Shown piece by piece: positions 34,921 through 43,891 of a stretch of 44,559 nucleotides of DNA. The DNA lies in the IMG/VR virus record IMGVR_UViG_3300028284_000245, positions 1 through 44,559 of that record; one strand, 5' to 3'. The stretch is from a virus. Position numbers and translations under genes: made by a program. Each line of letters begins with the position of its first letter. Position 1 is the stretch's first letter. The notes beneath the pieces are model-generated. The model saw nothing but the letters and a program-made list of their open reading frames with translations. It did not search any database and was not told where the DNA came from.

Positions 34921-35175
34921 ATGAAAATGTTACAAGATAATGTGTTACTCGCTGAAGTAGCAAAAGAAGAAACAACGACAGGTGGTATTATTTTATCTTC
35001 GGCTCAAGTGAGTAAAGCATCGCAACCAGGTTTGGTTCTTGCAGTTGGCCCTGATGCTGTAGGTATTGAACAAGGTGATCGTGTATTCCTTGAATGGTCT
35101 AAATCGATGCCGATTGACCACGACATGAAAGCAGCGGTTATTGTATCAGCACAGTATATTAAAGCCGTACTATGA
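34921..35175 (+). CDS. GroES-like co-chaperonin (gp31 analogue)
   Basis: An 84-residue protein: 'MKMLQDNVLLAEVAKEETTTGGIILSSAQVSKASQPGLVLAVGPDAVGIEQGDRVFLEWSKSMPI' follows the Cpn10 pattern (N-terminal L-x-D-x-V-L, mobile loop T-x-G-G-I-I-L, then G-x-V-x-A-V-G-P and G-D-x-V). The mobile loop hydrophobic tripeptide IIL should bind GroEL. T4 gp31 replaces host GroES to fold gp23, and this protein is the likely counterpart. Confidence 0.88.
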   Translation: MKMLQDNVLLAEVAKEETTTGGIILSSAQVSKASQPGLVLAVGPDAVGIEQGDRVFLEWSKSMPIDHDMKAAVIVSAQYIKAVL

Positions 35176-35699
35176 TCATAATCGATAACTTTTTGAACGA
35201 GGATCAATGGTCCAAATTCACATATGAAGGTCTATGGTATAAACCTAAGACCTATCATTGGTTTGGCATGGATCAACCTCCTCGTAATGTATGGGACGAA
35301 ATTGCATTCCATATATGGTCTTATGTTGATTCAAGAGGTTATGTAGATCTTGGTGGTTTTGATGGTATTGAGCATTGGACGAATATTATGACTCCAGATG
35401 GTGATGCCGATCTACCATTACATTATGACAAAGACGAATATCTCTGGAGAGAAACTGGAGAGGTTCGAGTCCCTAAAATCGGATCTGTTTTGTATGGTCA
35501 TGACGAGCAACCTACTGGTGGATACCTAGAGATGATTGATGAGAATGGAGTATCTGAAAGGATTGCTCCTATTCCTAACAGACTCATTATCTTCCCTAGT
35601 GGTTTACCACATCAGGTAACCGAAACTACGAGTGGCATTCGTAAAGTATTTGCAACGAATATCTGGACCGATAAGCCATCACCTGAAAACTTTGATTGA
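35172..35699 (+). CDS. 2OG-Fe(II) oxygenase
   Basis: A 175-residue protein with the double-stranded beta-helix iron site: H84-x-D86 in 'PLHYDKDEY', distal H147 in 'GLPHQVTE', and R157 in 'GIRKVFATNIW' for 2-oxoglutarate. Members hydroxylate proteins, small molecules or nucleobases. 2OG-Fe(II) oxygenases are frequent in aquatic T4-like phages and their substrates are mostly unknown. It is not evidently a TET/JBP-type base oxidase. It overlaps the GroES-like gene by 4 bases (ATGA). Confidence 0.85.
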   Translation: MIIIDNFLNEDQWSKFTYEGLWYKPKTYHWFGMDQPPRNVWDEIAFHIWSYVDSRGYVDLGGFDGIEHWTNIMTPDGDADLPLHYDKDEYLWRETGEVRVPKIGSVLYGHDEQPTGGYLEMIDENGVSERIAPIPNRLIIFPSGLPHQVTETTSGIRKVFATNIWTDKPSPENFD

Positions 35700-35934: not shown

Positions 35935-36954
35935 ATGAAACGATTAAAGTACTATGTACTCACGTCTAGCAATTTAGACTTACTCAAGCGCCATGCAAGT
36001 ATCGAGTACAGTAATATCCCAATAGACCTTTTAGTAGTGGTTATCAACACTAAGGATAAGGTGTATGAGAAAGAAGCTTCTGAATATTGTCAACAAGCCG
36101 GGATAGAATACTATATTACTGAATCGAATGGCACCCCAGGAAGGGGTAAAAACTCATTGCTCGAAAAGTTTCTAGAGAGCGATAATGATTACTGCGTTCA
36201 GATTGATGGTGATGACTACCTCACACCACATGGCGTATATGTGTATAATAATCTAGCCAATACTAAAAACCCGCCCGATGCCGTATGCCTAACCAAGCAA
36301 ATATCTATGATGTACGACCCAGAAGGGTCTAGCAAAATTCCAATGGCAATGCGATTTTTCCATATCGATTATGACGTGGAAATTGCAAAGTTACAAGAAC
36401 ACGGAGTTGACGATCGTGTTATTGAGTTCTATCAAGCACAAAAAAAGTATTCTGAAAAAGAAGAAAGCCATTGCCGAGTTACGTGGTACTCTAGAAAGGC
36501 TGCTGAGCATCGGTTTCTCGAGAACATACACATCGGTGAAGACACTCTCCACTACTTTAAACTAAAACACGAGCACTTCGCTGGGAGGTTAGTTTTTATG
36601 AATAATGTAGAAAGTCCGCCGACATACATATATGACCAAACTATAGATGGAATCGTTAAAACCAACTCTCAGGATCCGACTAATGTTTATGAGTGGATGG
36701 GTAAGTATATGCAAATACTTCGGCAATACGAGAAGGAAGGAACTCTATATGATAATTCAACACACTCTTTACCATTATTGAAGATTGATTATCCAGTTGA
36801 ATATGTTCCGGATGACTATGGATATACTGGTAATATGGTATATGCGGTTACAGATAATTTAGGAAACAGTGGTAACATGGAGCATCCAGCTAATGCATCT
36901 GAGAAAAGCTTAATAGCAAAATATCAGACTATGTTTCAAACTGACGAGAAGTAA
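35935..36954 (+). CDS. GT-A fold glycosyltransferase-like protein
   Basis: A 339-residue protein. The N-terminal half has the GT-A pattern: a first strand 'LKYYVLTSSN', 'IDLLVVVINTKDK', 'NGTPGRGKNSLLEKFLESDNDYCVQIDGDDYL' with the metal-binding D-G-D-D at 91-94, as in GT2-type enzymes. It could transfer a sugar to DNA bases, to virion proteins or to host surface glycans. The early-type promoter and nearness to the nucleotide-modification genes make DNA glycosylation of hydroxymethylcytosine an attractive but unproven option. The region after residue ~250 is not recognised. Confidence 0.7.
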   Translation: MKRLKYYVLTSSNLDLLKRHASIEYSNIPIDLLVVVINTKDKVYEKEASEYCQQAGIEYYITESNGTPGRGKNSLLEKFLESDNDYCVQIDGDDYLTPHGVYVYNNLANTKNPPDAVCLTKQISMMYDPEGSSKIPMAMRFFHIDYDVEIAKLQEHGVDDRVIEFYQAQKKYSEKEESHCRVTWYSRKAAEHRFLENIHIGEDTLHYFKLKHEHFAGRLVFMNNVESPPTYIYDQTIDGIVKTNSQDPTNVYEWMGKYMQILRQYEKEGTLYDNSTHSLPLLKIDYPVEYVPDDYGYTGNMVYAVTDNLGNSGNMEHPANASEKSLIAKYQTMFQTDEK

Positions 36955-37902: not shown

Positions 37903-37931
37903 TGTACATTCATGATAAACTGTGGTATAAT
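37903..37931 (+). promoter_or_regulatory. Early-type promoter TGTACA-N17-TATAAT (nucleotide/modification operon)
   Basis: TGTACA at 37903-37908 and TATAAT at 37926-37931 with TGG before it, 32 bases before the TTG at 37964. No terminator is visible between here and 42743, so it could transcribe the whole nucleotide and base-modification block. Confidence 0.82.
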
Positions 37932-37963: not shown

Positions 37964-38287
37964 TTGGCTAAATTCGATACTGACAAACCACCTCTGGCGC
38001 TTATTCCATCCGAAGCTCTTATAGAAATTTCAAAAGTCTTAAAGTTCGGTGCTGACAAGTATGGCGTTAACAACTGGCGTAAAGATGGACATTGTACTAG
38101 CTTTTCTCGTACATATTCTTCTATTCAAAGGCATCTATTAGCATGGAATGCTGGTGAAGATATCGACCCAGAATCTGGCTGCTCGCATCTTACCCATGCC
38201 ACTACTCAGCTTATAATTTTAATGATTCACCAAATGGAACACCCAGAAGTAGATGATCGTTACTCCGCAACTAAGGATAAAAAATAA
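37964..38287 (+). CDS. dATP/dGTP diphosphohydrolase-like protein (DUF5664-like)
   Basis: A 107-residue protein starting at TTG 37964 after AAAGGAGA. 'KFDTDKPPLALIPSEALIEISKVLKFGADKYGVNNWRKDG', 'RHLLAWNAGEDIDPESGCSHLTHATTQLIIL' is the signature of the phage dATP/dGTP diphosphohydrolase N-terminal family (related to MazZ). It probably hydrolyses a dNTP to dNMP plus pyrophosphate. It heads the operon that also makes the modified pyrimidine precursor, so a dNTP-pool role fits. Confidence 0.78.
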   Translation: MAKFDTDKPPLALIPSEALIEISKVLKFGADKYGVNNWRKDGHCTSFSRTYSSIQRHLLAWNAGEDIDPESGCSHLTHATTQLIILMIHQMEHPEVDDRYSATKDKK

Positions 38288-38973
38288 TGAATACTGTATA
38301 TGACATTCGTGAATATTTCATTCAAGAACTCGAAGCAGAAAGATTCTGTACTGATCGTAATGGCGGCAAAACTATCGAGATGCTCGGTGCATGCTTCCTT
38401 GCTGATAAAGAATCAATCTTTGGTAAAGTAAATCATGAATACGTAGATGCTGAAATCGAGTGGTATCAGTCAATGTCGACTAATATTAATAGGTTATCTG
38501 AAATCTATGGCAGATCTCCAGTCGCGTGGCAATACTCTGCCAATGAGTATGGCGAAATCAATTCAAACTATGGGTATCTAATCTATTCAGATAAGTTCTA
38601 CAATCAATACGATAATGCCCTTGAAGAATTAATTCATAATCCTGATTCTCGTCGTGCATCGATGATCTATAACCGTCCAAGTGTCTGGACCGATTTCGAT
38701 GATGATGGTAAGAACGATTTTATTTGCACGAATGCAGTAACCTATTACATCCGTGACGGTAAACTGAATTGTGTAGTTCAAATGCGAAGTAACGATGTAG
38801 TCTTTGGTTATAAAAACGATTATGCATGGCAAAAGTTTGTCTTAGACCAGCTAGTAGATGATCTGAACAAATCGACGGTTATGATCTTTGAAGATTCTAT
38901 TGAACCAGGTGATATTTTTTGGCAAGTCCAAAATCTTCACGTATATGAAAAGCACTTTGATCTGGTGAAATAA
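38287..38973 (+). CDS. 42: dCMP hydroxymethylase (gp42-like, thymidylate synthase fold)
   Basis: A 228-residue protein (T4 gp42: 246). Thymidylate-synthase-family landmarks are S-R-R at 121-123 (phosphate-binding Arg pair), the nucleophile C147 in 'FICTNAV', 'QMRSNDVVFGYKNDYAWQ' at 165-182, and LHVYEKH at 217-223. The residue that is Asn in dUMP-using thymidylate synthases is Asp here (D178). In T4 dCMP hydroxymethylase the equivalent pair is C148/D179, and Asp selects dCMP. The enzyme should therefore make 5-hydroxymethyl-dCMP from dCMP and methylenetetrahydrofolate, indicating hydroxymethylated cytosine in phage DNA. The start overlaps the previous stop by one base. Confidence 0.87.
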   Translation: MNTVYDIREYFIQELEAERFCTDRNGGKTIEMLGACFLADKESIFGKVNHEYVDAEIEWYQSMSTNINRLSEIYGRSPVAWQYSANEYGEINSNYGYLIYSDKFYNQYDNALEELIHNPDSRRASMIYNRPSVWTDFDDDGKNDFICTNAVTYYIRDGKLNCVVQMRSNDVVFGYKNDYAWQKFVLDQLVDDLNKSTVMIFEDSIEPGDIFWQVQNLHVYEKHFDLVK

Positions 38974-38974
38974 G

Positions 38975-39133
38975 ATGCTAGAAATGATAATTGGTTACTT
39001 TTTAGGTGGGATTATTATTGTATTAGGAGTGGCAGCATGTTATGCATCAAGCATAGAGTTGGCAGAACGAAAGCGGCAATGGCGTGCAGGCACGCATGAT
39101 TATTATGGGAATAAATTAAATGATGATGAGTGA
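38975..39133 (+). CDS. Small single-pass membrane protein (52 aa)
   Basis: The ATG is at 38975, one base after the hydroxymethylase stop. The sequence is an N-terminal membrane helix (MIIGYFLGGIIIVLGVAACYA) followed by a charged tail rich in Arg, Asn and Asp. The function is unknown. The stop overlaps the region of the next gene's possible start. Confidence 0.55.
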   Translation: MLEMIIGYFLGGIIIVLGVAACYASSIELAERKRQWRAGTHDYYGNKLNDDE

Positions 39134-39140
39134 AAGGCAT

Positions 39141-39284
39141 ATGCCTAAGGTAACACGTGTTGAGATTATTGATAAAAATGGTAGATCGTATACTAATTAT
39201 AAAGTAGCCGATCTCCACTTAAGTTGTCAAGATGACGGCCAAACATTAAAAATCTTTGTTGCTGAAGAATCTGAAGATGAATGA
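39141..39284 (+). CDS. Small hypothetical protein
   Basis: The frame is open from ATG 39120 (54 codons) and has a further ATG at 39141 (47 codons). The later start gives MPKVTRVEIIDKNGRSYTNY, which resembles the beginning of small conserved proteins in other T4-like phages, and GAAAGG precedes it closely. The rest, 'LSCQDDGQTLKIFVAEE', suggests a small beta-sheet protein. The 3' end overlaps the deaminase start by 8 bases. No function is assigned. Confidence 0.55.
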   Translation: MPKVTRVEIIDKNGRSYTNYKVADLHLSCQDDGQTLKIFVAEESEDE

Positions 39285-39738
39285 TAATAAATGGGATCAT
39301 AGATTTTTGGCTATGGCAAAGGAAATTGCATCATGGTCTAAAGATCCATCTAAGAAGATCGGTGCAGTTGCAGTTTCAGATAAAGGCCAAGTATTATCCC
39401 AAGGATACAATGGCTTCCCTCGAGGGATCAATGATACCGATCATAGACTGCATACTCGTGCCGAGAAATACAAGTATGTAGTACATGCCGAAATGAACGT
39501 AATATACAATGCTACATATACTGGTGTTTCACTAGATGGAGCAACTCTATACGTAGTTGGATTACCGGTATGTTCTGAATGTGCAAAAGGTATCATTCAA
39601 ACCGGAGTCAAACGAATCGTAATGGCTGATGTAGAGGGTGGCATGGACCGATGGAAAGAATCTTGGGAATTGTCTAAAATGATGTTTGATGAAGTAGGAA
39701 TACAATATGAATTCAGTGATTACGAATCCGATAAGTAA
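39277..39738 (+). CDS. cd: dCMP deaminase
   Basis: A 153-residue zinc deaminase. 'HAEMN' (residues ~72-76) carries the zinc-binding His and catalytic Glu, and 'PVCSECAKGI' supplies the Cys pair. 'SKKIGAVAVSDKGQVLSQGYNGFPRG' is the substrate-side signature of dCMP deaminases. It makes dUMP for thymidylate synthesis. With a dCMP hydroxymethylase next to it, it shares the dCMP pool, as in T4. Its end overlaps the next gene by 32 bases. Confidence 0.92.
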   Translation: MNDNKWDHRFLAMAKEIASWSKDPSKKIGAVAVSDKGQVLSQGYNGFPRGINDTDHRLHTRAEKYKYVVHAEMNVIYNATYTGVSLDGATLYVVGLPVCSECAKGIIQTGVKRIVMADVEGGMDRWKESWELSKMMFDEVGIQYEFSDYESDK

Positions 39739-40684
39739 TATACCAGTTAATGCTAAATCCCATGTTCATGGGTGGACCCAAACCTGGCACAGGCAACTAG
39801 GCTCAGATATAAACTATAAATGTACTCCTAAAGTAATGGACTATGACACGGTGTATATCGATCATGGTGCTAACTTTGGCGGTACTCTTAATTTATTTGG
39901 GGGTGCGGACAAATCAGTATACGATAGAGTTAACCGTATCGCCGCATCTAAAAATGTAATATCTCTTGACCATGATATGCCAGAATGGGGAGAACAGTTT
40001 CGTAAAAGAATCGGTGCTGCATCCACATACGAAGGTATTACCGAAGAATGGTGTAATGGTCTCACGTGTCGATTCAAAAAAACAGAATCACTAAAGCAAG
40101 AAGATTTACAAATGGATGGAATTACATTAGGTGATTCACATACTATTGCATTTGCTCGAGACAATGATAGTGTTCTACGTAATGATGGTAAAACCCTACA
40201 TGGTGCTTTAAAACAAGGTCTTCGTACTATGTTTAGAGGTAAACCAATCCGTGGTAACATTACATTGTGCTTTGGTTCTATTGATATCCGTCATCATCTG
40301 TTAAGGCATAAAGACTTTGTTCTAGAAAATCTAATTAAAGAGTATGTCACACAAGGTCAAGCATTAGAGTTAACCGAGGATTGTGATGTATATTATGCAA
40401 CACCAGTTCCTATCGAATTTGAGGGCAGACGTATACCTAAATCTGGATTTTATAAGAAAGAACCATTCTTTGGGTCATGGCAAGAACGTTACGACCTCAC
40501 AAACAGATTTATTGATGAGCTATATAAACAGTCAGGCGGAAAAGTTATCCAACCACCAACGGAATGGTATACGATGGACCCTGAGAAATACGCAAAAGAA
40601 TTTATGGAGCATGGATCATCATTTCATATTGCTCCACCATTTTACAGAAGCAACGATTGGGGAGTAACCGAGATTGGCGCATAA
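39707..40684 (+). CDS. SGNH/GDSL-like protein of the modification cassette
   Basis: A 325-residue protein. The N-terminal half is not recognised ('YDTVYIDHGANFGGTLNLFGG'). From residue 139, 'ITLGDSHTIAFA' resembles SGNH hydrolase block I (Ser144), 'ITLCFGSIDIRHHLLRH' block III, and 'FHIAPPFYR' near the C-terminus may hold the catalytic His with a preceding Asp. SGNH enzymes hydrolyse or transfer acyl groups. The gene is embedded by overlaps between dCMP deaminase and a PLP-enzyme-like gene, so a role in the same modification pathway is likely. The fold call is by motif only. Confidence 0.55.
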   Translation: MNSVITNPISNIPVNAKSHVHGWTQTWHRQLGSDINYKCTPKVMDYDTVYIDHGANFGGTLNLFGGADKSVYDRVNRIAASKNVISLDHDMPEWGEQFRKRIGAASTYEGITEEWCNGLTCRFKKTESLKQEDLQMDGITLGDSHTIAFARDNDSVLRNDGKTLHGALKQGLRTMFRGKPIRGNITLCFGSIDIRHHLLRHKDFVLENLIKEYVTQGQALELTEDCDVYYATPVPIEFEGRRIPKSGFYKKEPFFGSWQERYDLTNRFIDELYKQSGGKVIQPPTEWYTMDPEKYAKEFMEHGSSFHIAPPFYRSNDWGVTEIGA

Positions 40685-41603
40685 TAAACACGTAATAGAT
40701 AATACGAATAAAGATGTAAGTAACCTTATGATGGAAGGCGTTTTCGACCGTCATGACGCAAAAGAATATTATCTAAATTTAGCAAAGGATTGGACTGATC
40801 CTAATCCTGTACCTGTTGTAAAAGTTCATGATGATGTACGTGTATTACGAGATGATCTTCTTGTTGGATCTAAAACCAGAGGTGGTGATTGCTTAATTAG
40901 TAGTCTACCAGAACATATTGATACGATTGTCTATGTGCAACCTCGATTCGGCCTTGCTGGTGTATCGTTATTGGATGTTGCAAAACGTCATAACAAGAAG
41001 GTTCGTCTGTTCATGCCTTCAAGCAAAAGAATCAGTCCTCACCAGGCAGCATGTATCGAACGTGGTGCCGAAGTAAGTTTCCACCGTATTGCAGCAATGC
41101 CTAATCTAAACTTGATCGCAAAGAACTGGGCAGACAAACATCCCAATTGTTTCTTTGTGCCACTTGGATTAAAACATGAATTAGTGACTGCTGGATTCGT
41201 AAAAGTAGCATCACAGATTCCTGAGCCTGATGATGTATGGACAGTGTTATCTACAGGTGTCCTACACCGATCATTACAGATTGCATGGCCTAATGCAACA
41301 TTCCATGGTGTTGCTGTTGCTCGTAATATGAAAGCCGGTGAAGTTGGACATGATCGAATCATTAGCCATCCGCTTGCATTCACCCAAGGGCTTAAAGAAG
41401 AAGACATGCCTCCATTCCCGTGTATCGCTGAGTATGATGCTAAAGGTTGGGCACCTGCAGTTCAGTTTAAAAAGGATAATCCAGATCGTGATGTATTATT
41501 CTGGAATGTAGGTAATGAAGTCGCACCTGAAGACGAAACAATTTATGATAGAATAGATTCATATCGTGACTGGGAGAAAAACAATGCCAAAAAAGTGGAT
41601 TAA
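40674..41603 (+). CDS. PLP-dependent enzyme-like protein (fold type II)
   Basis: A 309-residue protein starting at TTG 40674 with GGGGAG at 40659-40664. 'VRVLRDDLLVGSKTRGGD' resembles the R-x-D-x-x-x-x-x-x-K-x-R segment that holds the PLP Lys in ACC deaminase/threonine synthase-type enzymes (candidate K67). 'YVQPRFGLAGVSLLDVAKRHNKKVRLFMPSSK', 'HQAACIERGAEVS', 'FFVPLGLKHELVTAG' and 'WTVLSTGVLHRSL' follow that family's order. PLP lyases occur in phage pathways that build amino-acid-like substituents on thymine or cytosine. The genes on both sides overlap it. A decayed or repurposed PLP fold is possible. Confidence 0.6.
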   Translation: MAHNKHVIDNTNKDVSNLMMEGVFDRHDAKEYYLNLAKDWTDPNPVPVVKVHDDVRVLRDDLLVGSKTRGGDCLISSLPEHIDTIVYVQPRFGLAGVSLLDVAKRHNKKVRLFMPSSKRISPHQAACIERGAEVSFHRIAAMPNLNLIAKNWADKHPNCFFVPLGLKHELVTAGFVKVASQIPEPDDVWTVLSTGVLHRSLQIAWPNATFHGVAVARNMKAGEVGHDRIISHPLAFTQGLKEEDMPPFPCIAEYDAKGWAPAVQFKKDNPDRDVLFWNVGNEVAPEDETIYDRIDSYRDWEKNNAKKVD

Positions 41604-42615
41604 TGAAGAGGCCATGGACATATTGGCCAACTACTATTACCCTCGTGCCAAATGGTTACAGTTAAATTCTAATTGGGGTAAGCTAGGATACAATAGTCCA
41701 GAGGCTGACACTGCAGTAAATGATCCACTTATGCAAGCAATCGATATTTATGATTGCTTTACTCGTAATGCTGCTGGATTCTCTAACGTCCTTCAAGACC
41801 TTAAGTTCATGACTAATACTCCAAAGTGGCACCATCAAGATGATACTCGACATAAATTAATCGAGGGTTATGATACTACTTCATGGGATCTAAAGACTTG
41901 GTTCTACGTATATCTCTGTCACCGAACCACCGGCTCTGGTGCATCCTTTACTCGAGATCACGGATACCGCAATAATGATATTCAGTATTGGGGCAATCTA
42001 AGAGATATTAAAGATATGCAAGAGCATATGATACACGTAAAGAGTTCAGGAAAACCACTCTTTACTTCTATTGGTAACCAACCACCTTCTCCTCGTAAAG
42101 GTGTTACATGTTTAGATTTTATGGTAAATGAACTTGAACCTTTACTCGATCGATTCATGGATTGGTTACATGCAGGTGGTAAAAAAGATCATAAGTCTAT
42201 TGTTGATTATCTCAATAAACATAACATAGAGCAAGGGCATAAACGATTTAATTTTGTTTACGCGGCATTCTCATATGACTTAGGCGATTATCATAAGGAC
42301 CTGGTTGATGATATGTCACATGGTTATTTTGGAAACAACGCAATCCGAAGTATGAAGGTATTAAGTCAAGGTTATTCTACTGATGAGTTTATGGACTTAT
42401 TGTGTGAACGTATGGGTGGAGCGCCAAGAGATAACGAAGATGTGTTATGTGACTTCGTACGGTTTGGTCAGAACTATGTCCCACGAAGCGATACTACATT
42501 TGACCACGTTCCGGAAGACATTATTAATAATTCTGGTTGGGTATCAGGATGGGAACAGCGGCAAGGTAAACCTAATGTAAATAGTAGTGTACAACTAGAT
42601 GCGTTTATGTTATAA
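41584..42615 (+). CDS. aGPT-Pplase/ADDT-like DNA-base modification protein
   Basis: A 343-residue protein; the ATG at 41584 follows GGGAGA at 41570-41575. It is helical, with conserved-looking blocks CHRTTGSGASFTRDHGYRN (112-130), 'FTSIGNQPPSP' (160-170), 'RFNFVYAAFSYDLGDY' and 'GYFGNNAI'. These recall the alpha-glutamyl/putrescinyl-thymine pyrophosphorylase (aGPT-Pplase, ADDT clade) family, predicted to attach amino acids or amines to activated hydroxymethyl pyrimidines in DNA. The assignment is from memory of the family pattern. It overlaps the PLP-like gene by 20 bases. No hydroxymethyl-dU kinase is visible in this window. Confidence 0.6.
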   Translation: MPKKWINEEAMDILANYYYPRAKWLQLNSNWGKLGYNSPEADTAVNDPLMQAIDIYDCFTRNAAGFSNVLQDLKFMTNTPKWHHQDDTRHKLIEGYDTTSWDLKTWFYVYLCHRTTGSGASFTRDHGYRNNDIQYWGNLRDIKDMQEHMIHVKSSGKPLFTSIGNQPPSPRKGVTCLDFMVNELEPLLDRFMDWLHAGGKKDHKSIVDYLNKHNIEQGHKRFNFVYAAFSYDLGDYHKDLVDDMSHGYFGNNAIRSMKVLSQGYSTDEFMDLLCERMGGAPRDNEDVLCDFVRFGQNYVPRSDTTFDHVPEDIINNSGWVSGWEQRQGKPNVNSSVQLDAFML

Positions 42616-42616
42616 T
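42588..42616 (+). promoter_or_regulatory. Early-type promoter embedded at the end of the 41584 gene
   Basis: TGTACA at 42588-42593, a 17-base spacer, and TATAAT at 42611-42616 overlapping the ATG of the next small gene. The TGT before the -10 matches the family. It is an upstream partner to the uvsX promoter at 42751. Confidence 0.6.
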
Positions 42617-42750: not shown

Positions 42751-42779
42751 TGTACAATGCAATTAAAGTGTGTTATAAT
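42751..42779 (+). promoter_or_regulatory. Early-type promoter TGTACA-N17-TATAAT (uvsX)
   Basis: TGTACA at 42751-42756 and TATAAT at 42774-42779 with TGT before it, 33 bases before the uvsX ATG. Confidence 0.8.
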
Positions 42780-42811: not shown

Positions 42812-43891
42812 ATGTCTATAATGGATAAACTAAAAAAGAACTCAAAGATCAAAGGTACTGATACACTTGCCGATAGTATCTACTTTGGGGAAAAAGATAT
42901 GGTAGCGACTGATGTGCCTATGGTAAATGTTGCGCTATCTGGCGATCCGGATGGCGGTTTGACCTCGGGTCTTACTGTGCTTGCCGGCCCATCGAAACAC
43001 TTCAAAACTTCCTTTGCCCTACTCATGGCTGGTGCATATCTCAGAAAGCATAAAGATGCTGTAATGTTATTCTATGATTCCGAGTTCGGTTCACCACAAT
43101 CATACTTCGAAGCATTTGGTATTGATACAAATCGTGTATTGCATACTCCTATTACTGATGTAGAACAACTGAAGTTTGATCTAGTAGGCCAATTGGATAA
43201 TATTGAACGTAATGATAAAGTCATTATTGTAATCGATTCTATTGGTAACCTTGCTTCGAAGAAAGAACTTGAAGATGCTTTGAATGAGAAATCAGTTGCT
43301 GATATGTCTCGTGCTAAGGCACTCAAAGGTTTGTTCCGTATGGTAACACCTTACTTGACCATGAAAAATATTCCACTGCTTGCGGTAAATCATACATATC
43401 AAGAGATTGGTCTATTCCCTAAAGCTGTAGTATCGGGTGGTACAGGTATCTACTACTCGGCCGACAATATCTGGATCCTTGGCCGTCGTCAAAACAAAAC
43501 TGGCACTGAGGTTACCGGTTATGATTTCATCATTAATGTTGAAAAGTCTAGGATGGTTAAAGAGAAGTCTAAGATTCCTGTGTCTGTGTCTTGGGATGGT
43601 GGTGTTGAGCGTAATAGCGGTTTGTTGGATATTGCTCTTGCTGGCAATTTCGTTGCTAAGCCTTCTAATGGTTGGTACTGCGTTGTTGATCGCACAACTG
43701 GAGAATTGATGCAACCAAAAGTTCGTGAGAAAGATACCAAGACTGATAAGTTCTGGGATCCAATCCTCAAAGATCCAGAGTTTAAAGCTTTCCTAATTGC
43801 TCAATATCAAATTGGTCACAAATCAATTGTTGACTTTGATCCTGAAATCCCTGTAAATAGTAGTGTACAAGAGGTCAAAAATGAGTTATAA
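42812..43891 (+). CDS. uvsX: Recombinase UvsX (RecA-like)
   Basis: A 359-residue protein (T4 UvsX: 391). The Walker A-like GPSKHFKTS at 59-67 matches the T4-type variant. 'YDSEFGSPQSYFEAFGID' and 'VIIVIDSIGNLASKKE' are the conserved ATPase blocks, followed by 'VNHTYQEIG'. It forms filaments on single-stranded DNA and performs strand exchange with UvsY's help. It is preceded by two early-type promoters and AACTGGAGAAG. Confidence 0.95.
   Translation: MSIMDKLKKNSKIKGTDTLADSIYFGEKDMVATDVPMVNVALSGDPDGGLTSGLTVLAGPSKHFKTSFALLMAGAYLRKHKDAVMLFYDSEFGSPQSYFEAFGIDTNRVLHTPITDVEQLKFDLVGQLDNIERNDKVIIVIDSIGNLASKKELEDALNEKSVADMSRAKALKGLFRMVTPYLTMKNIPLLAVNHTYQEIGLFPKAVVSGGTGIYYSADNIWILGRRQNKTGTEVTGYDFIINVEKSRMVKEKSKIPVSVSWDGGVERNSGLLDIALAGNFVAKPSNGWYCVVDRTTGELMQPKVREKDTKTDKFWDPILKDPEFKAFLIAQYQIGHKSIVDFDPEIPVNSSVQEVKNEL

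Follow-up and report, generated by a model that had tools for sequence, protein, structure and literature searches.

The question raised by this locus is which DNA base its gene cassette modifies, and by what chemistry. The window, i.e., the whole 44,559 nt of IMGVR_UViG_3300028284_000245, is a contig of a T4-like phage in which positions 38287-42615 code for a dCMP hydroxymethylase (HMase), a dCMP deaminase, an SGNH-fold protein, a PLP protein of the M6 gp52 type (PALP), and a protein here termed X3; the cassette sits between the HMase gene and uvsX, the place of the beta-glucosyltransferase gene (b-gt) in T4. We favor, with modest confidence, the reading that the cassette encodes a post-replicative pathway of 5-hydroxymethylcytosine (hmC) hypermodification that adds an amino-acid-derived side chain, with the SGNH protein replacing the kinase. 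Within this reading, hypermodification of DNA cytosine by the cassette is probable, an amino-acid origin of the side chain is slightly favored, and the assignment of the activating step to the SGNH protein is tentative.

Layout and recurrence of the cassette

The genes placed below, from the diphosphohydrolase-like gene to uvsX, lie on the plus strand. A promoter-like element (TGTACA, a spacer, and TGNTATAAT; 37903..37931, plus strand) precedes the entire run and would act as its promoter; the motif has 13 copies in the window, compared to 1.16 expected by chance. Further copies found by motif search before uvsX (42588-42616 and 42751..42779, plus strand; uvsX at 42812..43891, identified by Pfam and PHROG) flank the run on its other side, and likely mark the end of the cassette transcription unit. 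The first gene, a dATP/dGTP diphosphohydrolase-like precursor-pool gene (37964..38287; PF18909, E 4e-29), overlaps the HMase gene (38287..38973) by 1 bp; it occurs near 9 of 59 X3 loci and does not accompany every cassette. The HMase gene ends 303 bp upstream of a head-to-tail overlapping run that consists of the deaminase (39277..39738; the listed ORF starts with TTG at 39256), SGNH (39707..40684), PALP (40674..41603), and X3 (41584..42615) genes, with overlaps of 32, 11, and 20 bp. A previous sequence-only reading of this DNA had proposed a single overlapping run beginning with the HMase; its four reading frames (HMase, SGNH, PLP, and X3) are indeed open and the last three overlap, but the HMase stands apart, and the intervening deaminase had been overlooked. 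That reading had also missed that no 5-hmdU-kinase helical domain is detected, and that the cassette is widely conserved.

The cassette carriers are uncultured bacterial viruses from the ocean and from freshwater, and each of two scans yielded at least 500 environmental relatives. Neighborhoods were counted at the 59 distinct X3 loci that have 4.5 kb or more of sequence on both sides; SGNH was found near 53 of them, PALP and HMase near 49 each, and dCMP deaminase near 48. Gene order varies widely between loci, and the cassette genes share one strand throughout (222/222); since the grouping recurs in 59 well-flanked loci, in many orders and on one strand, it is not due to chance. The cassette is also found in phages outside the UvsX/gp41 context (loci L078, L112, and L116), and SGNH and X3 occur without PALP at loci L107, L108, and L308. 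Common as the cassette is in environmental viruses, X3 has no match (0) in 50,697 phage records.

Properties of the encoded proteins

The HMase, a member of the TS superfamily (Pfam E 1e-16; PHROG E 2e-47), has equivalents of T4 gp42 residues C148, E60, and D179, and thus combines the TS fold and the catalytic Cys with the Asp that replaces the dUMP-binding Asn in enzymes of the T4 gp42 type. HMases of the cassette type carry Asp in the D179 column without exception (83/83), whereas the thymidine-hypermodifying phages ViI, M6, phiW-14, and PaMx11 carry Asn (4/4); the window HMase is therefore not the dUMP-type hydroxymethylase that a thymidine hypermodification pathway requires. Judged by these residues, a cytosine-type (dCMP) enzyme, as the sequence-only reading had suggested, is strongly supported. 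The translated deaminase (Pfam PF00383, E 2e-20; PHROG E 5e-45) matches the deaminase profile and carries the zinc motifs HAE and PVCSEC.

The SGNH protein (phrog_13881, E 2.5e-96) consists of an N-terminal Rossmann-like part (residues 1 to about 130) and an SGNH domain (about 130-320). In its AlphaFold2 model (pLDDT 90.5), residues ~128-320 align with GDSL/SGNH esterases (Z about 12; 3.1-3.5 A), in agreement with the SGNH-like character noticed earlier, and the O-acetyltransferase PatB is among these structural matches. The flavodoxin-like fold, the block I GDS, and the block V His place it in the SGNH superfamily; in the alignment, GDSH (142-145) is present in 112/112 and H307 in 111/112 sequences. 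As a caveat, the block III GxND motif lacks its Asn and reads G[S/N]ID, with Ile192 in 112/112 sequences, and the Asp of the block V DxxH motif is absent, with S, Q, K, or G in its place; ordinary acyl-transfer chemistry is uncertain because both residues are missing. The literature searched contained no report of DNA base modification by an SGNH superfamily enzyme, and a PDB sequence search with the SGNH, PALP, and X3 profiles gave no credible match.

PALP, previously recognized as PLP fold-type-II-like, can be assigned more narrowly by sequence to the M6 gp52 type: it matches phrog_7093 (E 4e-36) and M6 gp52 (hhalign, 97.7%, E 2e-12), with a profile similarity that includes the C-terminal signature PPFP..YD.K.W...FWNVG, while its match to the general PALP family PF00291 (E 3e-5) falls below the curated cut-off. 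The invariant K67 is presumably the PLP lysine. In M6, the PALP gene directly follows an ADDT-family gene (gp51-gp52); the gene is present in ViI and M6, and was not found in phiW-14 and PaMx11. The M6 and ViI enzymes reportedly decarboxylate the base-linked amino acid; outside phages, PALP enzymes mostly catalyze eliminations or replacements, not decarboxylations.

X3 is predicted to be all-helical, with an amino-acid:DNA-transferase/aGPT-Pplase-like fold, and appears to be related to ADDT/aGPT-PPlase by this predicted fold only. In structure comparison, its model (pLDDT 86.6) hits viral models that bear the name 'Amino acid:DNA transferase domain' (for A0A6J5L8T5, E 7e-16 and TM 0.79) and, more weakly, aGPT-Pplase1 and 5-hmdU-kinase helical proteins (E 0.007-0.04); it has the helical DNA-glycosylase-like fold common to the ADDT and aGPT-Pplase families, to which the comparison with the PaMx11 glycinyltransferase adds weak support (Z 9.3, equal to the value for 8-oxoG glycosylases and still in the range where helical folds call for caution). 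X3 matches no Pfam (including ADDT, PF18724) or PHROG family, single X3 sequences show no link to ADDT/aGPT, and two X3 alignments gave no significant hhalign match to an ADDT/aGPT-Pplase2 alignment (probability about 1%). The ADDT-like assignment of the sequence-only reading thus holds for the predicted fold and not for the sequence; the structure prediction that it had proposed as a check bore out the SGNH fold and an ADDT-like X3, although Foldseek found no significant match of X3 in the PDB. Invariant X3 residues are R61, R114, G117, S118, D232, N252, E285, C289, and R293. A PF18724 match in another cassette record, G001 (E 0.01), was rejected as ADDT; it sits in a clamp-loader-like ORF.

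Candidate pathway and its alternatives

The HMase would convert dCMP to 5-hydroxymethyl-dCMP and the deaminase would drain leftover dCMP towards dTMP, so that replication would incorporate hmC; this first step has strong sequence support. The SGNH protein might then turn the hydroxymethyl group of hmC into a leaving group, e.g., by O-acylation via Ser144/His307, in the role of the 5-hmdU DNA kinase in thymidine pathways. The predicted fold of X3 and its place in the operon suggest that it would take the flipped base and swap the activated group for an amino acid, which PALP, given its homology to M6 gp52, would shorten to an aminoalkyl-type group, probably through decarboxylation. The resulting cytosine would be bulky, would probably carry an amine, and would protect the DNA from restriction and CRISPR nucleases.

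The kinase domain HMUDK_hel (the 5-hmdU-kinase helical domain) matches all four thymidine-hypermodifying phages but was not found in cassette records G000-G003 (44, 135, 142, and 102 kb; possibly incomplete); SGNH shows the converse distribution, present in these records but not in the four phages. The kinase search covered HMUDK_hel and AAA_33, and the latter gave only weak matches that did not reach the cut-off; two of these, in G000 (28019) and G001 (39116), fall within clamp-loader genes, and another in G001 is a 141-aa ORF.

A less likely alternative is that the SGNH protein caps or edits late: a kinase of the host, or one encoded elsewhere in the phage, would activate hmC, X3 and PALP would install an amine or alcohol, and SGNH would acylate or deacylate this group. 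Such a role would suit a superfamily of esterases and acyltransferases with PatB among the matches, and a kinase could sit outside the cassette in possibly incomplete records; yet the SGNH substrate need not come from X3 or PALP, because the gene-42 phages 44RR and 25 have SGNH without detection of either.

An unlikely possibility is a thymine-type base, with the deaminase converting 5hm-dCMP to 5hm-dUMP and X3 and PALP acting on 5hmU in the manner of ViI and M6. The deaminase shares the operon with X3 and PALP, both of which resemble thymidine-pathway enzymes, and 5hm-dCMP is reportedly a substrate of T-even dCMP deaminases; however, T4 makes hmC with the same HMase and deaminase pair, neither a dUMP-type HMase nor HMUDK_hel was found in the cassette records, the cassette occupies the glucosyltransferase slot, and the deaminase is absent or displaced in some X3 loci.

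Glycosylation is quite unlikely; here, SGNH would descend from or replace T4 b-gt, a GT-like gene at 35935-36954 would encode the transferase, and X3 and PALP would have other roles. SGNH occupies the same genomic slot, and its N-terminal part shows a weak likeness to b-gt (hhalign score 33.8, whereas 60 shuffles did not exceed 23.5; HMM E 4e-4 in G011; E 0.013 for one A2 member), but its C-terminal part has the SGNH fold with GDSH instead of a GT-B nucleotide-sugar domain, and the GT-like gene occurs in no other cassette locus. When the cassette records were searched for T4-type beta-GT, no match passed the cut-off. Finally, an auxiliary metabolic operon of SGNH, PALP, and X3 unrelated to DNA bases is very unlikely in view of the linked cytosine-type HMase (49/59 loci), the slot between gene 42 and uvsX, the DNA-modification-type PALP subfamily, and the ADDT-like X3 fold.

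Comparison with known systems

Amino-acid-derived decorations of phage DNA have been described on thymine, as in the end bases 5-NedU of M6 and 5-NeOmdU of ViI, and sugars and carbamoyl groups on cytosine; to our knowledge, amino-acid-derived base groups are so far known only on thymine. If the hmC pathway favored here is correct, the cassette extends such decoration to cytosine, using an SGNH superfamily step, and it may possibly supply new hmC-reading or hmC-tagging enzymes. A more speculative extension is that many uncultured marine and freshwater phages modify cytosine in parallel to the known thymine pathways, with hmC activated by an SGNH-fold enzyme, as an acyl or other ester, rather than by phosphorylation, and with an SGNH module common to cultured Aeromonas T4-like phages.

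The M6 and ViI pathways share with the cassette an HMase-family enzyme, a helical protein of the amino-acid-transferase type, and a PALP enzyme; they differ in that the cassette HMase is of the dCMP rather than the dUMP type, X3 is linked to ADDT by fold only, and HMUDK_hel and a radical-SAM gene were not found in the cassette, which has SGNH instead (background on thymidine hypermodification is taken in part from PMC9476957). With T4 hmC glucosylation, the cassette shares dCMP-HMase, dCMP deaminase, and modification genes between gene 42 and uvsX, where SGNH, PALP, and X3 take the place of b-gt. In the 5-carbamoyloxymethylcytosine system (MetaGPA, PMC8670742), an hmC-esterifying phage enzyme likewise occurs in association with domains of the TS family and of dCMP deaminase; this enzyme is a carbamoyltransferase, in contrast to the SGNH, PALP, and X3 of the cassette.

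Aeromonas phages 44RR/31 and 25 have gene 42, no glucosyltransferase, and an SGNH protein that is 28-32% identical over its length; no X3 or PALP match was found in 44RR and 25, in an X3 search without positive control. In 44RR and AS4, SGNH forms the N-terminal part of a protein of ~800 aa; the fused C-terminal domain of 44RR is helical and weakly matches Pfam HMUDK_hel (E 4e-4 to 0.0036), but hhalign does not link it to the HMUDK profile, nor is it linked to X3. In phage 25, the SGNH gene neighbors a UDP-galactopyranose mutase gene. SGNH is thus a candidate gene for the base modification of phages 44RR, 31, and 25, and since these carriers are cultured, mass spectrometry of their DNA is feasible.

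Gene Content and Conservation of the Cassette

The 44.6-kb virus record comes from a T4-like phage and encodes structural proteins (tail sheath, portal, major head protein) as well as replication and recombination proteins (a UvsW-type helicase, an SbcC-like nuclease subunit, sliding clamp, clamp loader, DNA polymerase, UvsX, and the start of gp41). The cassette genes named in the sequence-only reading are present on the plus strand where it had placed them: a dCMP 5-hydroxymethylase (HMase; 38287-38973), an SGNH-fold protein (39707-40684), a fold-type-II PLP protein (PALP; 40674-41603), and X3 (41584-42615); the SGNH gene was said to follow the HMase gene, and a dCMP deaminase gene that this reading did not mention sits between them. 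Overlaps join the deaminase and SGNH genes (32 bp), SGNH and PALP (11 bp), and PALP and X3 (20 bp); on its 3' side the HMase gene is bordered by a 303-bp gap, and it shares 1 bp with a dGTP/dATP diphosphohydrolase-like gene. The promoter-like motif TGTACA-N15-TGTATAAT (at most two mismatches) has 13 copies in the window vs. 1.16 expected, 12 of them on the plus strand (for example 19303, 32967, 37903, and 42751), and is probably this phage’s own promoter class. Since one copy lies just 5' of the cassette run at 37903 and the next only at 42588 and 42751, ahead of uvsX, we infer that the diphosphohydrolase-like gene, X3, and the genes between them form a single transcription unit. A 2OG-Fe(II) oxygenase-like gene (35172-35699) 5' of the cassette recurs in a close relative (L093); a 339-aa protein (35935-36954) with a weak glycosyltransferase-2-like match (Pfam E 0.05) occurs in no other cassette locus.

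IMG/VR searches with the SGNH, PALP, and X3 proteins retrieved relatives having the same neighbors; two profile-type scans with X3 gave at least 577 and at least 522 confirmed relatives among the 600 candidates listed. Among 149 distinct X3 proteins, neighbors were counted for the 59 that are flanked on each side by 4.5 kb or more; SGNH genes lie near X3 in 53 of these 59 loci, PALP and HMase genes in 49 each, dCMP deaminase genes in 48, and UvsX in 38, and SGNH or PALP neighbors always share the strand of X3 (222/222). Gene orders vary (HMase-deaminase-SGNH-PALP-X3, HMase-deaminase-X3-PALP-SGNH, PALP-SGNH-X3, and others), and the cassette also occurs in contigs without uvsX and gp41 neighbors (L078, L112, L116); this linkage, kept despite rearrangement and apart from those neighbors, argues that the cassette genes serve one function. 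The SGNH gene is missing near X3 in six of the 59 loci, one of which, on a 174-kb record, has it elsewhere. Seven loci are in bacterial MAG contigs, with phage-like neighbors; no X3 match was found among 50,697 phage records, with divergent members also used as queries.

Relationships of PALP and X3

By sequence, the kinship of PALP with gp52 of phage M6 is the best link to any known hypermodification pathway. The window PALP is a member of phrog_7093 (E 4e-36), and its profile matches gp52, encoded directly 3' of the ADDT-family (amino acid:DNA transferase) protein gp51, with 97.7% probability (E 2e-12), including the C-terminal signature PFP..YD.K.W...FWN(V/I)G; K67 is invariant (126/126). 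Pfam PALP matches are present in the thymidine-hypermodifying phages ViI and M6, and were not found in two others, phiW-14 and PaMx11. In M6 and ViI, the PLP enzyme reportedly acts on the attached amino acid; in the cassette, PALP would trim such an amino acid. An M6-like cassette, SN1, combines hydroxymethylase, aGPT-Pplase1, nucleotide kinase, radical SAM, PLP enzyme, and aGPT-Pplase2 (PMC9476957). PALPs of the same subfamily are found inside a ParB/N4-N6-methylase-like protein in Erythrobacter phage R6L (L003) and right after one in Microcystis phage Mae-JY30 (L004); a distant PALP clade (L079-L092) occurs where the cassette is missing, and its L079 member is close to genes for an Asp/Arg-hydroxylase-like protein and a PLOD-type glycosyltransferase.

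The suggestion that X3 is an aGPT-Pplase/ADDT-like protein holds for its predicted fold and not for its sequence, since neither sequence profiles nor Pfam connected it to ADDT/aGPT-Pplase2. The almost entirely helical AlphaFold2 model (pLDDT 86.6, pTM 0.86) has as its top BFVD matches three uncultured-phage proteins (E 3e-17 to 2e-14), among them A0A6J5L8T5, named “Amino acid:DNA transferase domain-containing protein” (TM 0.79, 24% identity), followed by a second ADDT-named protein (E 6e-4) and by aGPT-Pplase1 and 5-hmdU DNA kinase helical-domain proteins (E 0.007 to 0.04). Among solved structures (VIA), the PaMx11 5-PmdU glycinyltransferase (8z2n) and AGOG DNA glycosylases both reach Z 9.3, which for helical proteins may reflect a common arrangement only. 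As modeled, X3 appears built like ADDT/aGPT-Pplase enzymes; because of the sequence results, family membership is not claimed. Its invariant polar residues (148 sequences) include R61, R114, S118, D232, N252, E285, C289, and R293, and X3 would transfer the amino acid. A weakly related second family of about 58 sequences, X3b (hhalign 66%, E 5e-5), usually lies directly 3' of X3 (L262:3218-4219 and about 57 other loci).

The SGNH Protein

Structure prediction assigns residues 130-320 to the SGNH fold. All 112 sequences have GDSH and 111 keep His307, Ile replaces the Asn of GxND, and the Asp of DxxH is lost; since these two residues are gone while conservation is complete or almost complete at E237, R241, K250, R261, and E301, the protein is a specialized, possibly non-hydrolytic member of its superfamily. 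It is absent from ViI, M6, phiW-14, and PaMx11; conversely, the cassette records gave no match to the 5-hmdU-kinase helical domain (HMUDK_hel), which these four phages all have. Aeromonas phages 44RR and AS4 encode the SGNH part joined to a C-terminal region; in 44RR ORF233c (L001:6001-8388; 795 aa), a natural fusion, this region weakly matches HMUDK_hel. In phages 25, AS-gz, and IME13 (L002:3776-7047, L141, L144), SGNH is grouped with a UDP-galactopyranose mutase gene and an unknown gene, which suggests a galactofuranose-type variant. Aeromonas phages 44RR, 31, and 25 have gene 42 without a glucosyltransferase, and what such phages add to 5-hydroxymethylcytosine (hmC) was left open in a review (PMC2993671).

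Since the SGNH protein is common to phages with different downstream genes, we place it early, where it would activate the hydroxymethyl group of hmC; the rival placement has it acting late. Its N-terminal part (window 39707-40100) shows weak collinear similarity, including N.FGG, to that of T4 beta-glucosyltransferase (hhalign E 6e-4, score 33.8, with 23.5 as the highest among 60 shuffles), which would fit an hmC-binding half and is only a lead. Tenacibaculum phage PTm1 has a distant SGNH relative among ribonucleotide reductase genes (L140:4554-5573; structure match E 4e-12).

Base Specificity and Comparison with Known Systems

In an alignment with T4 gp42, the window HMase retains the counterparts of Cys148 and Glu60 and carries Asp in the Asp179 column; Asn is found there in the HMase-family enzymes of ViI, M6, phiW-14, and PaMx11 and in the true thymidylate synthases of 44RR and 25. 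Asp occupies this column in 83 of 98 distinct HMase-family enzymes from the fetched loci; of the 15 with Asn, M6-type or PaMx11-type loci account for 14, and the last (L311) resembles an ordinary thymidylate synthase. By this established residue rule, a preference for cytosine, as first read from the sequence, is strongly indicated. Rival readings are a thymine product, reached by deamination of 5hm-dCMP, and glycosylation. In the reading preferred here, the cassette would act on hmC in DNA, and the product would protect the DNA from nucleases.

The T4 gene order is 42, b-gt, (segA), uvsX, 40, 41, whereas the window and its relatives have HMase, cassette, uvsX, (small ORF), 41, so that the cassette occupies the place of the T4 beta-glucosyltransferase. 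A T4-type beta-glucosyltransferase above cut-off was found in none of eight cassette-bearing records. In phage C48C1 (UvsX 76% identical), genes for an epimerase and for UDP-glucose dehydrogenase precede uvsX, and no X3 match was found. No published description of the gene set was found in the literature searched. The cassette would specify a pyrimidine hypermodification, a kind of modification already known, and may lead beyond that kind; the known additions to hmC found in the same literature are sugars and carbamoyl, and a pelagiphage paper assigns TS and aGPT-Pplase1 to thymidine.
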